The translations under genes and the position numbers were made by a program. From positions 1 through 31,643 of the IMG/VR virus record IMGVR_UViG_3300020404_001579: a stretch of 31,643 bases of DNA; one strand, 5' to 3'. Position 1 is the first letter of the stretch; every line of letters starts with the position of its first letter. This document shows positions 1 to 19,047 of this stretch, piece by piece. Origin of the DNA: a virus. The notes below the pieces were generated by a model. It saw nothing but the letters and a program-made list of their open reading frames with translations. It was not told where the DNA came from and ran no database searches.

Positions 1-619
1 CTTTTTCAGTCATAGGGTAGAAAAATTCATCTAAAATTTCTTGTTCAAATCTTTTAGGGTCACCATATGCTGCCATACCCATAAGGATATATTCGTCTTC
101 TTGTGGTTTTAGACCTATACGTTGTGTCATAGCACTATACCACAATCCTATACTATGTGGATATGATTGTTTATAGATGCATTTTAAGGTTGTGTCCACT
201 GCGTCCCAGATTGTGAGAGTGTCGAATTCGCCCATACTATCAACAACCATAATGGTAGCAGCAGATAACCCACTAGTATAATATCCACCGGCAGCATGGG
301 ATCTATGATGACCAATATAATTGATAGGACAATCAATCCCATAGTTTTTAAGATACGTTTTAATATTGTTCTTTTGCCAGTAACCAAATCCTTGTCCTGC
401 TCTAAGTTGTCTAAGTGTTTTGAGTCCGGGTCTCTCATACCATACTACCTCCTCTGGTTCGCCCCATTGTTTAGCGTATTCAATAAGTTTGTTATTAAGA
501 TGAGCATCATTTTTTAATCCGCTGAACCGTTCACTGTGGCTTGCAAATTCTAAACCATCATCTGTAAATACTGCTAATGCAGCATCATGACTATTGCCGC
601 TTATTCCCCATGTGATCAT
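1..619 (-). CDS. Carbamoyltransferase, NodU/CmcH family (N-terminal part)
   Basis: About 206 residues of the N-terminal, Kae1-like domain are visible; the rest runs off the left edge. Residues 4-15 read WGISGNSHDAAL, the nucleotide-loop motif of the family, and further on come IGHHRSHAAGGYYTSG, with the His residues that bind metal and ATP in TobZ/NodU proteins, then VVDSMGE and the segment ending LMGMAAYG. Known members use carbamoyl phosphate to place a carbamoyl group on a sugar or antibiotic hydroxyl. The ATG overlaps the stop of the 33-residue ORF upstream (ATGA), which implies translational coupling with the primase operon. The substrate is unknown; a glycan is a reasonable inference given the sugar genes elsewhere in the window. 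Confidence 0.88.
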   Translation of the reverse strand, partial: MITWGISGNSHDAALAVFTDDGLEFASHSERFSGLKNDAHLNNKLIEYAKQWGEPEEVVWYERPGLKTLRQLRAGQGFGYWQKNNIKTYLKNYGIDCPINYIGHHRSHAAGGYYTSGLSAATIMVVDSMGEFDTLTIWDAVDTTLKCIYKQSYPHSIGLWYSAMTQRIGLKPQEDEYILMGMAAYGDPKRFEQEILDEFFYPMTEK

Positions 620-12532: not shown

Positions 12533-12901
12533 ATGTTATTAAAAAATATAGAGAAAAATTTTCCATTCATATCAGTAGTCGCTTATGGCGGGCAAGAATA
12601 TGTTGGAGTGATTGTAAATCAAGATACCACAGTTACAACAATGTATATCTACACAAAGTTGAAAACTGATGAGGACAAAAAACTTTTATTAGAACTTGGT
12701 GAAATATGGTGGTGGGAATCAAACAGAATGATACCTATCAATATATTTTTACGTAAAGAAATAACACCGTTAAATTATGCTATGATGACAATGAATACTA
12801 AAGATGTTAAAGTAAGTGTTGGCCCGTGTGTAAATTTAAACAATTTAAGTTTAAAAAGAGTAAAAAGAAAAAGCGTTCAAGTTATGAGACGCTCTCGTTA
12901 A
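12533..12901 (+). CDS. Hypothetical protein, 122 residues, lone plus-strand gene
   Basis: The protein starts MLLKNIEKNFPFISVVAYGG and has Trp-rich EIWWWESNRMIPINIFL in the middle, then a basic C-terminus (KRVKRKSVQVMRRSR). I recall similar proteins in T4-like cyanophages but know no function. The N-terminal half looks like a small beta barrel. No good ribosome binding site lies before the ATG. Its last 20 bases overlap the end of the convergent mini-polymerase gene. It is divergent from the structural block, with late-like boxes in the gap. Confidence 0.8.
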   Translation: MLLKNIEKNFPFISVVAYGGQEYVGVIVNQDTTVTTMYIYTKLKTDEDKKLLLELGEIWWWESNRMIPINIFLRKEITPLNYAMMTMNTKDVKVSVGPCVNLNNLSLKRVKRKSVQVMRRSR

Positions 12902-13451
12902 GTTCCTCACAAATTAAATTCATATGAACAACACATGACATAGCATAAGCTATAGCATGTGCCTTCTTAAAGTAATAACTTTTATCCTCTGGTTTTTTCC
13001 AGACTTCTGTTTCGATTGTTTGCCAAGTTTCGTTGACAAGATGCCTCTTTGCAGGCCGAATTATCGCTAATACGGCTGCTAATTGTTCCACTGACTTTGG
13101 CTGCAACTTTCGTAAGATGTTGCCATGACCGTTGACGTGAAAGAGCAAGTTGGTGAAATCGTCGTGCTCCAATAGTTGCCATTCTGGTTCCTTTCTCATT
13201 AGTTGTTGTAAATGTTCTTCGTTTTTCACTTTGCTATATATAGATACATTCAAAAAATCTAATTTAAAGTAACCTCGTTCTTCTGCTACTTTGTAATCTA
13301 TTGTTGCTAAATTATCAACAGGATTGTGCGGACATTCAGTAACATACACACCTGTATTATGTTTTTTACCTGTGTCAAGTTTAGCTGTAATATGTTGTAT
13401 CTTATCTAATACAATATTTCTATCAGCAAAATCTATATCAATATCAGGCAT
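12882..13451 (-). CDS. Miniature DNA polymerase III alpha (DnaE)-like protein, 189 residues
   Basis: Segments match DnaE catalytic motifs in order. MPDIDIDFADR (1-11) resembles PDFDVDF with its two metal-binding Asp residues. HNTGVYVTE (31-39) resembles HAGGVVI. GYFKLDFLNVS (60-70) resembles LVKFDFLGL, with the third catalytic Asp as Asp65. LLFHVNGHGNILRKLQP (102-118) then AAVLAIIRPA (125-134) resembles the fingers segment VFQLES..MKDLIKRLQP..ALFRPG. KKAHAIAYAM (162-171) resembles KSHAAAYAL. The usual protein exceeds 1000 residues; here PHP, thumb, OB and tau-binding regions are absent. An AGGATAAG ribosome binding site precedes the ATG. Polymerase activity is not established; a degenerate or regulatory role is possible. 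Confidence 0.75.
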   Translation of the reverse strand: MPDIDIDFADRNIVLDKIQHITAKLDTGKKHNTGVYVTECPHNPVDNLATIDYKVAEERGYFKLDFLNVSIYSKVKNEEHLQQLMRKEPEWQLLEHDDFTNLLFHVNGHGNILRKLQPKSVEQLAAVLAIIRPAKRHLVNETWQTIETEVWKKPEDKSYYFKKAHAIAYAMSCVVHMNLICEELNESVS

Positions 13452-13743: not shown

Positions 13744-13922
13744 ATTGCATCTACCTTACTCCAATGCTTTTCGCCTTCAGTAGGTGTGTTACCAATATAC
13801 TCTTCTCCTGTCTCTCTGTCAACCAATTTCCACTTCATAGGACATTTAGTTTTGACAACTAGTTCTACAGACTCTTCAAGTTCATAAACTTGCACACCGT
13901 TTTGAAGTTTTCTAAAGTTCAT
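13740..13922 (-). CDS. Hypothetical protein, 60 residues
   Basis: The ORF starts MNFRKLQNGVQVYELEESVE and contains CPMKWKLVDRETGEEYIGN, a pattern suggesting a small beta domain. ATGA overlaps join it to both neighbours (zinc-finger gene upstream, membrane protein downstream), which supports it as a real coding gene. No family is recognised. Confidence 0.7.
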   Translation of the reverse strand: MNFRKLQNGVQVYELEESVELVVKTKCPMKWKLVDRETGEEYIGNTPTEGEKHWSKVDAI

Positions 13923-14599
13923 AAGTTTGCTTCTTTTACTATTTGTTTTGCTAATTCAACATCTTTGGGTTGTCTTTTAAATCTTAGTGCCCAGTGCTTC
14001 GGATCTAATACTGAACCTAACATTCCAAGTTGTTCATCATTTAGTTTAGATAATGCTTCTTTACCACTAGCACAATTTAAAACTAACCAAGGAGATATCT
14101 TGCCATCTTTTATATCCCATGTCATTCTGTTTGTGCTTACATATAAAAAATAATGATTGTATGTAGAATCTTTTTCAGATGCCCATTCTATCATTGTTTG
14201 TATACTTCTTTCTAAAGCTGTTTCTACACCTTCCTTACGTATTAATTCAACAGCATATTTTTCATACATTTCATCTCTGCACCAGTGATCTAATTTGACA
14301 CCACTAGTGACCACATAATCAATATAGCGATCAGGGTATAAAGGTCGAACATTAGATACAAAACTGCCGAACTTAACGAACGCATTATAAAAACTGCTTT
14401 TGACAAAATCTTCATATATTTTTTCCTTTTTATGCCCTGCACTTAATTTATAAAATCTTTGAAATGCATAAAAACCTATTGTAACACGTTTTTCATCTTT
14501 TTGCAACCAACGTCTTTTTGGCTCGCACATGTGAGCCATTAGTGTGCTTTCTTTCATATAACTTTTGTTGCAATATTCGCATGTGTATTTAGATGTCAA
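13919..14599 (-). CDS. Zinc-finger protein of unknown function, ~226 residues
   Basis: The N-terminus has a zinc finger, YTCEYCNKSYMKESTLMAHMC: C-x2-C-x12-H-x-C. The rest is mostly helical, with FYAFQRFYKL, NAFVKFGSFVSNV, LYPDRYIDYVV and an Arg/Lys-rich C-terminus. No ATG lies before the finger. I chose TTG at 14599, which gives an 11-base overlap with the upstream gene. A TTG at 14662 has a better ribosome binding site (GAGGT) but would give a 74-base overlap and a longer Lys-rich start. I recall similar proteins in T4-like cyanophages. A DNA- or RNA-binding role is plausible because of the finger. Confidence 0.72.
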   Translation of the reverse strand: MTSKYTCEYCNKSYMKESTLMAHMCEPKRRWLQKDEKRVTIGFYAFQRFYKLSAGHKKEKIYEDFVKSSFYNAFVKFGSFVSNVRPLYPDRYIDYVVTSGVKLDHWCRDEMYEKYAVELIRKEGVETALERSIQTMIEWASEKDSTYNHYFLYVSTNRMTWDIKDGKISPWLVLNCASGKEALSKLNDEQLGMLGSVLDPKHWALRFKRQPKDVELAKQIVKEANL

Positions 14600-15059
14600 C
14601 TTTTTCGTAACCGTGTTCTTTGGCGAGCTCTTTGATTTCTTTTTTTGTAGATATTCTAGCAAGTGTTTCTACCTCGTCCATTTTCATTTCTGGATAAATT
14701 TGTGCTAACAAATTTACTGCTTTACTGCTGTCGTCTTTTTTCTTTTTAAGTCCTATCCAAGGATGGAACTGTTTCTTTCCTGTTTTACCTGCAACACATA
14801 ATAGTTGCCATTGTAGTTTTACATGATTTGTGCCGCCTAACACATTCCAGTTTTTATTATAGTATTCGTTCACCTTAAACACTGCTAGTGCAGTTTTTTC
14901 ATAGTTGCCTTTTACACTGCTAATATAACGGTTTAAGTTCCATAAGTCAAGTTTTATATCTTTCTTGCCATCTTCACCGGCAGCATCATACAGCTCTTTA
15001 AAGCCCATGTCAATGCTTGGAATAAGTTCTTTAAATAAGTCTAGTTCTTTGTTTGCCAC
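14589..15059 (-). CDS. Hypothetical protein, 156 residues
   Basis: The start is GTG (MANKELDLFKELIPSIDMGF) with GGAG 12 bases upstream, inside the end of kdsB (19-base overlap). The protein is mixed helical with LDLWNLNRYISSVKGNYEK and a C-terminal part that looks like a small helix-turn-helix or SAP-like motif (EVETLARISTKKEIKELAKE). It is paired with the zinc-finger gene and probably acts with it. No function is known to me. Confidence 0.75.
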   Translation of the reverse strand: MANKELDLFKELIPSIDMGFKELYDAAGEDGKKDIKLDLWNLNRYISSVKGNYEKTALAVFKVNEYYNKNWNVLGGTNHVKLQWQLLCVAGKTGKKQFHPWIGLKKKKDDSSKAVNLLAQIYPEMKMDEVETLARISTKKEIKELAKEHGYEKVDI

Positions 15060-15706
15060 TTTTCTAAATCTCCAGGCGTGTTTATTTCTATTCCATCAAA
15101 CTCAACTTCTACTACACCAATCTTTACACCATTCTGTATCCAACGAAGCTGTTCTAGTTTTTCAATATCTTCTTCAGGAAATTTTTTGCTAGTGGTATAC
15201 ATAATTTTTGCTTCTCTGTTATAACCGTAGATACCTAAATGATGGTCACCATACGTTAGGCTTGCACGTAGGAACCAATGTGCTCTACCTCGACTATGTA
15301 TCATTTTAACACTGTTTGGATCATTTCGCAAGTCAAAATCCATTGGCGTAAAAGCTGTAGCTACATCACTACGTTGTAATTCTGATTCCACTGCACGTAT
15401 TATCTCAGGTGTAATATCTGGCATATCTCCTTGAACATTAATATACCTATCGTATTCTAAAACTTCATCAATAACTTGCATACAACGTTCAGTGCCGTTT
15501 TCTGCTTCTTGTGTCATAATACATTTGCCAGCACCCATATGATTATATACTTCTTGTGCATCTGTAAGCACATACGTATCTAATCCTGTAGCTGCACATT
15601 TGTTATAAACGTGTTCAACTAATGGCACATTGTTTAGTAATGCCATCATTTTGCCTGGATAGCGTGTGCTTGCATATCTAGCGGGTATTAGAATTGCTGT
15701 TGTCAT
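15041..15706 (-). CDS. kdsB: CMP-Kdo synthetase (3-deoxy-manno-octulosonate cytidylyltransferase)
   Basis: It should couple Kdo to CTP to make CMP-Kdo, the donor for Kdo transfer. Visible motifs are IPARYASTRYPGK (7-19, nucleotide binding), HVYNKC, NGTERCMQV, YINVQGDMP (the family usually has GDEP), HHLGIYGYN and EKLEQLRWIQNG. At 221 residues it is a little shorter than bacterial KdsB (~245). The start ATG lies 29 bases inside the end of kdsA, so the pair is translationally linked. The Glu-to-Met change in GDEP is unusual, but the other motifs suggest an active enzyme. Confidence 0.92.
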   Translation of the reverse strand: MTTAILIPARYASTRYPGKMMALLNNVPLVEHVYNKCAATGLDTYVLTDAQEVYNHMGAGKCIMTQEAENGTERCMQVIDEVLEYDRYINVQGDMPDITPEIIRAVESELQRSDVATAFTPMDFDLRNDPNSVKMIHSRGRAHWFLRASLTYGDHHLGIYGYNREAKIMYTTSKKFPEEDIEKLEQLRWIQNGVKIGVVEVEFDGIEINTPGDLEKWQTKN

Positions 15707-16469
15707 AATGATATCCTATAATTTCTTTTACTATATACTCAAAGTCTTTTAAGTATAACATGTTTGGACCATCGCTTGGTGCGTTATCTGGATCAGGATG
15801 AATTTCTAAGAAAAAACTACTAATCCCAAGAGCGGACCCAGCACGAGCAAGATGAGGAACATAACTACGATCTCCACCAGACGTGGTGTCATTTCCCCCC
15901 GGTCTTTGGACTGAGTGCGTAACGTCATATACAAAGTTGGTGCCAAGAGAGCTAAGGAGGTCGTGCATACCAGTGAAATCATTAATAAGACGCCCATAAC
16001 CAAAACTAGTTCCTCTTTCTGTTATCCAAACTTCTTTTGCATGTGTTGTTTTAGTAAGTATGCCTTTTATATCGTTAGGTGCCAAAAACTGGCCTTTTTT
16101 GATATTAACAATTTTATCTGTAGAACATGCTGCTAATATCAAATCAGTCTGTCGGCACAAAAATGCTGGTATTTGTAAAACATCAACTGCATCATTAAAT
16201 TCTCTAGATATACGATTTACTTGAACGTAATCATGCACATCAGTTAAGGTTTTAACTCCTAGTGTTTTTTTCATAGAAAGGAAATCACGTAACGTTGCTT
16301 CCATTCCCATTCCACGTTTGCTAGACATACTTGTTCTATTAGCTTTATCGTAACTTGCTTTGAAATAATAGTCAATGCCAAACTTGTTGCATATTTTTTT
16401 GCAATGTTTTGCTATTTCGGCACTTTCGGCTAAACTTTCATGTTGGCAAGGTCCAGCTATAATTCTCAT
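15678..16469 (-). CDS. kdsA: Kdo-8-phosphate synthase
   Basis: It should condense phosphoenolpyruvate with arabinose 5-phosphate to give Kdo-8-phosphate. Clear motifs are IAGPCQHES (4-12), YFKASYDKANRTS, TERGTSFGYGRL, DVTHSVQRPGG and LEIHPDPDNAPSDGPNML. The Cys in AGPC is the residue found in metal-dependent KdsA enzymes such as that of Aquifex; the E. coli type has Asn there. The length of 263 is close to the normal ~270-285. An ATGA overlap joins it to the 90-residue gene upstream. The phosphatase KdsC is not present, so the host enzyme would be needed. Confidence 0.95.
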   Translation of the reverse strand: MRIIAGPCQHESLAESAEIAKHCKKICNKFGIDYYFKASYDKANRTSMSSKRGMGMEATLRDFLSMKKTLGVKTLTDVHDYVQVNRISREFNDAVDVLQIPAFLCRQTDLILAACSTDKIVNIKKGQFLAPNDIKGILTKTTHAKEVWITERGTSFGYGRLINDFTGMHDLLSSLGTNFVYDVTHSVQRPGGNDTTSGGDRSYVPHLARAGSALGISSFFLEIHPDPDNAPSDGPNMLYLKDFEYIVKEIIGYHYDNSNSNTR

Positions 16470-17583: not shown

Positions 17584-19047
17584 TTATTTCCAATCCACTT
17601 TCTCTATTGTGAATGGGTATTGTGCTTCCTTATAAAACTTTTTACGTTGGGTAAGGTGCCGCTTCGCAAACTTACATGTGCTTGTAAGATCCCATATTTG
17701 CACGAAGTCTTTGTCCTTTGCCTTTCTAACGCCTCTACCTATACTTTGAATAACTCTAACAAAACTCTTTCCAGGCTCAATAAGAACAAGATTGAAAATC
17801 CTAGGAATGTTTATACCAACAGAAGCAACACCGTAAGTGGCAATAACCACATGATTAGTTCCTTCGTTGATTTCGTCATACGCATCTTTTCTATCCTTTA
17901 GTTTTACGTCTCCTTTTACAAAGACACTTCCGGGTATAAGTTCTTGTAACATTTCGCCTGCACTAATTCTATCTACAAGTATTAGAGTATTGCCTGATTC
18001 TTTTATTGTGTTTAAAAGTTTGCCTAAATAATTTAATCTGTCAGCATTTGTAACTAGATATTTTAATTCTTCTTGATAACCTCTGTGTGCTACAGTATCA
18101 AGTAGTTGAACAATGTTAACATGACACTTTGAAAGCACACCTTTATCTTGTAATTCTTTTGCCGATATTTCTCCAATCACTGGACCTAAACTAGCATGTA
18201 TACTTTCAAATTCAAATTTTTCTTTTGGTATAGTGCCAGTAAGTCCCCAACGAATAGGTGCATTTTTTAAATTGCGTGTAAGCAAATTCTTTAGCACTTC
18301 TGCTTTTGCTTGATGCACCTCGTCTACAATAATCGTGCTCACACCATCTAAGAACTCAGCAAGTGATAACACTGCGTCTCCGTCCTTGTGCTTCTTGTCC
18401 AGTATATTCAGTGACTGCCAAGTGCAGATGGTGTGAGTCTTACCTAACTCTTTTCTATCTCCAAAATAAACTCCAACATCTAATCCACAGTTTATATAGT
18501 CTTCTTCTGTTTGTGTTACAAGTGATTTATTTGGAACAATTACTAAACTACGCCCATACTTTTCGCTCATATGAGATAATGTTGCTGTTGTAATTGTTTT
18601 GCCTGCGCCAGTAGCAATTTGTTGTAAACTTTGTGGATTATTAGCAAAGTTGTTTATTGCTTCTACTTGATAGTCACGCAGAATTATTTCTTCTCCTTCA
18701 GCTGGATGACCCTTAGGCCAATGCACTCCTTGATCTGCCCAATAACGTTCTGTAATTTGTGGAAAGTCTAATTGTATAGGATGGCGTTTATCTTCAATGT
18801 CAACTATCTGAACATTGTTTTTTGCCAATACTTCTGTAACTGTATCTAAATGATTTACATACCCACTACCACCTATACCAAAAAAAGCAACCTTTCCATC
18901 CCAACGGCCTAGTTTATATTGAGGCATATATCGTGCATATGGCACTTCAAACTTAAGAGCATTTGATAACTTTCGACGGACATCTACATCTAAACCTTCA
19001 AGTTTGATGTTTACTTCGTCTTCTATTATAAGTTTACAACTTGCCAC
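17584..19047 (-). CDS. uvsW: UvsW-like recombination and R-loop helicase
   Basis: A 487-residue superfamily 2 helicase that in T4 unwinds R-loops, migrates branches and helps shift replication to recombination-dependent mode. The N-terminal ~110 residues match the UvsW DNA-binding domain in layout (RYMPQYKLGRWDGKVAFF). Motifs: LRDYQ (Q-like, 123-127), IATGAGKT (144-151, Walker A), DEVHQ (242-246), LTGT (269-272) and QSIGRGVRK (434-442, motif VI). Length is close to T4 UvsW (~500). The start is GTG, with GAGGATAA just upstream overlapping the previous stop. Confidence 0.95.
   Translation of the reverse strand: MASCKLIIEDEVNIKLEGLDVDVRRKLSNALKFEVPYARYMPQYKLGRWDGKVAFFGIGGSGYVNHLDTVTEVLAKNNVQIVDIEDKRHPIQLDFPQITERYWADQGVHWPKGHPAEGEEIILRDYQVEAINNFANNPQSLQQIATGAGKTITTATLSHMSEKYGRSLVIVPNKSLVTQTEEDYINCGLDVGVYFGDRKELGKTHTICTWQSLNILDKKHKDGDAVLSLAEFLDGVSTIIVDEVHQAKAEVLKNLLTRNLKNAPIRWGLTGTIPKEKFEFESIHASLGPVIGEISAKELQDKGVLSKCHVNIVQLLDTVAHRGYQEELKYLVTNADRLNYLGKLLNTIKESGNTLILVDRISAGEMLQELIPGSVFVKGDVKLKDRKDAYDEINEGTNHVVIATYGVASVGINIPRIFNLVLIEPGKSFVRVIQSIGRGVRKAKDKDFVQIWDLTSTCKFAKRHLTQRKKFYKEAQYPFTIEKVDWK

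Follow-up and report, generated by a model that had tools for sequence, protein, structure and literature searches.

A conserved viral protein matching the C-terminal, metal-binding half of a split, minimal DNA polymerase III alpha

The stretch of viral DNA analyzed here (the window; 31,643 nucleotides) carries on its minus strand an open reading frame (ORF) at 12882–13451 that encodes a 189-residue protein, hereafter F2. An earlier note, made from the sequence alone, had recognized in this ORF the motifs of the DNA polymerase III (Pol III) alpha palm and fingers; our analysis confirmed both the ORF and the order of the motifs. A PHROG profile search assigned F2 to PHROG 11778, annotated as 'DNA polymerase' (E 1.7e-62), with a weaker match to PHROG 405, a phage DNA polymerase family of 1190 positions (E 8.5e-8). 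The sole Pfam match was to the Pol III finger domain PF17657 and stayed under the cut-off (E 0.015). With a profile built from cultured-phage homologues only, F2 scored 233.7 bits, compared with 10.2 bits for the best of 1000 shuffled sequences, and its dN/dS was 0.05–0.12 against homologues at 72–84% identity. The F2 ORF is a real gene under purifying selection. Homologues with 32–54% identity were present in 63 phage records, mostly of jumbo phages and including RaK2, 121Q, CBB, PA5oct, Atu_ph07, Phosso, and SCTP-2, and at least 547 viral-contig stretches encoded a relative. An intein in the window protein was considered and rejected, as most homologues begin directly at MPDIDIDF.

The surroundings of F2 are conserved as well. 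A convergent gene on the plus strand (12533–12901) shares 20 bases with the 3' end of F2 and encodes a 122-residue protein of PHROG 11637 (E 5.2e-31), a family without assigned function in PHROG, whose product gave no Pfam match. A homologue of this gene, always convergent, was present at 141 of the 144 F2 loci with room for it, making its product a possible partner of F2; RaK2, 121Q, CBB, Atu_ph07, and Phosso have a convergent gene of similar size at the end of F2. Upstream, on the minus strand at 13919–14662, lies a member of PHROG 11058 (E 2.6e-63; conserved at 133 of 135 loci) with a C2H2 zinc-finger-like N-terminus, for which the PF00096 match remained under the cut-off (E 0.0011). The F2 block in relatives comprises UvsW, the C2H2-like protein, gp61, and gp41, and the order in the window, with a UvsW-like helicase at 17584–19047 and a primase at 1006–1983, matches that of the relatives. 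The F2 locus is surrounded by T4-type replication genes, as in T4-like myoviruses. Elsewhere in the window, two minus-strand ORFs at 15041–16469 resemble, and may encode, a KDO-8-phosphate synthase and a CMP-KDO synthetase; this putative pair is located near a larger glycan gene cluster at about 20–31 kb. The start of a carbamoyltransferase gene (2–619, minus strand; PF02543, E 8.9e-19) runs off the window end.

Profile and structure alignments placed Asp3, Asp5, and Asp65 of F2 at E. coli D401, D403, and D555, and Asp7 at D405. The triad proposed previously (Asp5, Asp7, and Asp65) was correct for Asp65, but its first two members were shifted by two residues; by these alignments and the predicted structure, the catalytic aspartates of F2 are Asp3, Asp5, and Asp65. 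F2 has three catalytic aspartates in a Pol-beta-type palm, as is characteristic of the C family. The opening MPDIDIDF aligned with E. coli SMPDFDVDF, and its DIDID strand, carrying Asp3, Asp5, and Asp7 (13431–13445, minus strand), was invariant in 59 relatives. Using hhalign, residues 30–135 were aligned with E. coli DnaE 510–642, residue 30 corresponding to 510. Within this segment, the invariant His31 (13359–13361, minus strand) corresponds to the histidine of E. coli GKHAGG and marks where the palm resumes past the deleted thumb, and Lys63-Leu-Asp65 (13257–13265, minus strand) corresponds to K553-F-D555 and supplies the predicted third metal ligand. A shortened fingers region follows, from Arg132-Pro133 (the RPG segment) to His165 (the NKSH segment), at 12957–13058 on the minus strand. 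Asp3, Asp5, Asp7, Lys63, Asp65, Arg132, Pro133, and His165 were invariant in the 59 aligned relatives and likewise in 22 relatives reaching 32% identity, and the patterns D[IV]D[IV]D and KxDxL were found in 152 of 152 F2 homologues.

The AlphaFold2 model of F2 had a mean pLDDT of 91.3 and a pTM of 0.82. Structure comparison revealed matches to Taq Pol III alpha 461–841 (Z 9.9), M. tuberculosis DnaE 419–811 (Z 9.7), and E. coli Pol III alpha 400–809 (Z 8.7); strong matches were confined to C-family polymerases, and no unrelated chain exceeded Z 3.2. At the sequence level, matches to PDB chains needed a profile, and a single-sequence search of those chains with F2 gave nothing useful. The C-family match of the model runs from the catalytic aspartates onward and takes in the latter part of the palm along with portions of the fingers. 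Approximately 20 residues of F2 stand in place of E. coli 407–509, the stretch that holds the thumb in the crystal structure. The kinship to the Pol III alpha palm and fingers was therefore borne out by sequence, profile, and predicted structure: the relatives conserve the three aspartates and the model resembles DnaE, the two points on which the earlier note had let its proposal depend.

The reported absence of the PHP, thumb, and OB parts also proved right, and the reduction goes further, since most of the fingers, the half of the palm that bears the GRGS motif, and the HhH domain are missing too. Pfam searches found neither PHP nor HhH domains in the 189 residues of F2. Supply of these domains from elsewhere in the genome was considered and dismissed, as in a whole-genome search of 15 related genomes neither HHH_6 nor PHP gave a match over the cut-off; among control genomes, HHH_6 exceeded the cut-off in 10 of 14 and PHP in 14 of 14.

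For triphosphate binding, Pol-beta-type polymerases depend on a glycine-serine loop. In DnaE this loop is the GRGS motif (E. coli 361–364), upstream of the aspartates, and it is absent from the F2 chain. Searching whole related genomes with PF07733 revealed that GRGS is encoded there by a second, distant gene, hereafter F1, which belongs to PHROG 11127, specifies a protein of 170–185 residues, and retains GRGS in 121 of 121 cases. The earlier description of F2 as a miniature C-family core consequently holds for family identity and fails for completeness: F2 is no stand-alone core because GRGS is lacking from it and is encoded by a second gene in the relatives. The window, a fragment of 31.6 kb, yielded no F1, and the presence of this gene in the window phage is presumed from the relatives. 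An F1 query from phage Phosso matched zero viral contigs.

The two proteins correspond to adjacent stretches of Pol III alpha. F1 terminates with '...GVGRGSSVASYVLYLIGVHKINSIQYGLDWREFLR' followed by the stop codon and F2 starts with 'MPDIDIDF', while the E. coli counterpart of this junction reads '...ERFLN-PERVS-MPDFDVDF'; the end of F1 corresponds to the 'ERFLN' of Pol III alpha, and F2 starts six residues on. On PF07733, F1 covered positions 18–96 and F2 positions 96–196, and profile alignment placed the end of F1 at E. coli 393. Structure comparison matched F1 residues 81–185 to E. coli 279–393 and residues 76–185 to M. tuberculosis 304–413, the N-terminal 80 residues of F1 being predicted with low confidence. 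Together, F1 and F2 tiled the same crystal chains without overlap and about six residues apart (E. coli 279–393 and 400–809; M. tuberculosis 304–413 and 419–811).

F1, F2, and a family B polymerase (PF00136) were jointly present in each of the 12 named jumbo phages whose genomes were searched whole, and likewise in six large environmental contigs; the expectation that a family B polymerase exists alongside the C-family protein was thus upheld in the relatives. F1 was present in 59 of the 60 listed phage records with F2, the exception being a 109-kb partial record. Three large contigs contained F2 and lacked F1, and because the family B gene was also missing from them, contigs with one half only are read as fragments. 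None of the fetched loci had both genes, whether fused or adjacent. Protein distances of F1 and F2 were correlated (r = 0.89, 15 genomes), a value that shared descent alone can give; this correlation is no proof of binding because the two genes share the history of their phages.

A gp44 clamp-loader gene was located near F1 at 44 of 50 and 14 of 14 loci. Downstream of F1 lie genes for an uncharacterized protein of approximately 127 residues and then a GroES-like protein (for example, L089 1759–2553), found at 67 of 68 and 64 of 65 environmental loci, respectively, and at 14 of 14 RaK2-type loci. In many genomes, a gene for a DnaQ/RNase T-type exonuclease also maps no more than about 5 kb from F1 or F2, in varied arrangements (G001 185787–186266; L092 7619–8182; XacN1 118830–119339; RaK2 109954–110460). 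The exonuclease is a possible proofreading partner of F1 and F2; it was left out as a subunit, at least two of these genes differing in sequence and setting.

Considering the observed homology, complementary tiling, co-occurrence, and invariant catalytic residues of both halves, we infer that F1 and F2 associate and are active together. We favor, with a probability of roughly 0.7, the reading that F2 is the C-terminal subunit of a two-piece minimal C-family polymerase, joined with F1 and accessory to the family B replicase. The invariant metal ligands of F2 and the GRGS of F1 suggest one active site made from two proteins. F1 would contribute the opening portion of the Pol-beta-type palm, including GRGS, the loop to which the triphosphate of an incoming nucleotide binds, and F2 would bring the DxDxD strand, the third aspartate, and the shortened fingers region; binding in trans, they would rebuild a single two-metal nucleotidyltransferase site. 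With no thumb left in either protein, the grip on the primer-template would have to come from elsewhere. Such a complex would be poorly processive and would work alongside the family B replicase that the phage itself encodes. A processive replicase is unlikely because the thumb, PHP, HhH, OB, and clamp-binding parts are lost, and the related phages have a family B replicase; the likeliest role is that of an accessory, low-processivity polymerase beside the replicase, one that synthesizes short stretches, for example to fill gaps, extend primers, or bypass lesions. A more specific picture, in which F1 and F2 form a C-family polymerase of two subunits, about 375 residues in all, that operates with a shared active site and without thumb, PHP, or clamp-binding parts, possibly held on DNA by a third conserved partner such as the PHROG 11637 protein, is tentative, and we rate it somewhat below an even chance.

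Retention of the active-site residues in both halves, when the thumb that holds the primer-template and most of the fingers are gone, could also reflect an active nucleotidyltransferase that performs no templated polymerization and adds nucleotides to ends, protein, or RNA. However, the RPG and KSHA finger segments are retained and both genes adjoin replication genes, and we regard this reading as unlikely. The earlier note had offered three roles, a repair polymerase, a decoy for host parts, or a regulator; repair or accessory synthesis fits best, and the other two are disfavored because both halves keep their catalytic residues strictly conserved. Small proteins homologous to the host replicase might indeed bind host Pol III partners (clamp loader, epsilon) without catalysis, yet the parts lost are exactly those by which Pol III alpha binds epsilon (PHP), the clamp, and tau, and such a function has no need for invariant metal ligands and GRGS across two genes, which makes a decoy or regulator very improbable.

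Severe domain loss might instead point to a structural scaffold or to the decaying remnant of a captured dnaE. This is scarcely credible given a dN/dS of F2 as low as reported above, more than 500 related viral-contig stretches, and catalytic residues that stay invariant down to approximately 32% identity. Least plausible is the idea, raised at the outset, that F2 is an active mini polymerase by itself: it contains all three metal ligands, but GRGS lies in the second gene, which co-occurs with F2 in every complete genome examined. The two-piece accessory polymerase is accordingly the reading we retain. If it is a polymerase, the F1–F2 pair would be, to our knowledge, the smallest C-family polymerase known.

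The split enzyme itself was predicted in 2021, in a study of 224 jumbo phages that described a minimal Pol III alpha in separate proteins encoded by distant genes in its group 2.2, whose members also have a family B polymerase, and that argued that such split minimal forms may resemble the ancestral module (PMC7824862). Atu_ph07, a group 2.2 phage in that study, has the F1 and F2 homologues analyzed here, and F2, a C-terminal protein in a separate ORF with the Mg-binding aspartates and a template-binding part, has the composition by which the split system was described (PMC7824862). As far as the window extends, its phage differs from that system in nothing essential; it is an added member with structural support, and no new system. 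In 2017, the phage CBB paper reported a 'truncated' Pol III alpha of 172 residues, CBB_328 (PMC5259590), which is F1 of the same two-gene system; the CBB homologue of the window protein is gp287, named 'DNA polymerase' in RefSeq. A 2022 study of marine jumbo phages names PF07733 among the markers of one of its phage genome clusters (PMC9123017). No experimental study or assay of the F1–F2 pair was found in the literature. The present analysis adds the tiling of both halves on solved structures, a map at residue level, the conserved neighbors, and a large set of environmental relatives; an unusual small protein becomes one half of an enzyme that can be tested. If active, the pair would indicate how little of Pol III alpha suffices for nucleotide transfer, would provide a two-subunit palm to study, and would call for an explanation of why a phage that already encodes a family B replicase has a second polymerase.

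Compared with bacterial DnaE and PolC, as represented by E. coli Pol III alpha, F1 and F2 share the Pol-beta-type palm with GRGS, the counterparts of D401, D403, and D555, and the KxDFL, RPG, and KSHA segments. E. coli Pol III alpha is a single chain of 1160 residues, whereas F1 and F2 total about 375 residues in two chains and are without the PHP, thumb, HhH, OB, and tau-binding parts and most of the fingers. The DnaE of Tenacibaculum phage Larrie is broken at the same linker as F1 and F2, between ERFLN and PDIDxDF (L182 3146–4693 and 4696–6726). In contrast to F1 and F2, this enzyme is nearly full-length, retains PHP, full fingers, and HHH_6, and is encoded by two adjacent genes. It could be an intermediate state; besides the ancestral reading, a break at this shared site is also compatible with reduction of a full-length enzyme. 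On both Larrie halves, short extensions next to the break are possible split-intein remnants, with no Pfam intein match. A full-length DnaE of 1065 residues was found in the unverified record of Staphylococcus phage SA 1306 Kay (L183 1931–5128) and probably stems from bacterial DNA included in that record, not from the phage. Family B polymerase matches fell in two open frames each in Atu_ph07 (NC_042013 212336–213688; 418 and 578 residues) and PAC2 (PP408249 202949–206726; 825 and 379 residues), and the family B polymerase of these phages may be split too.
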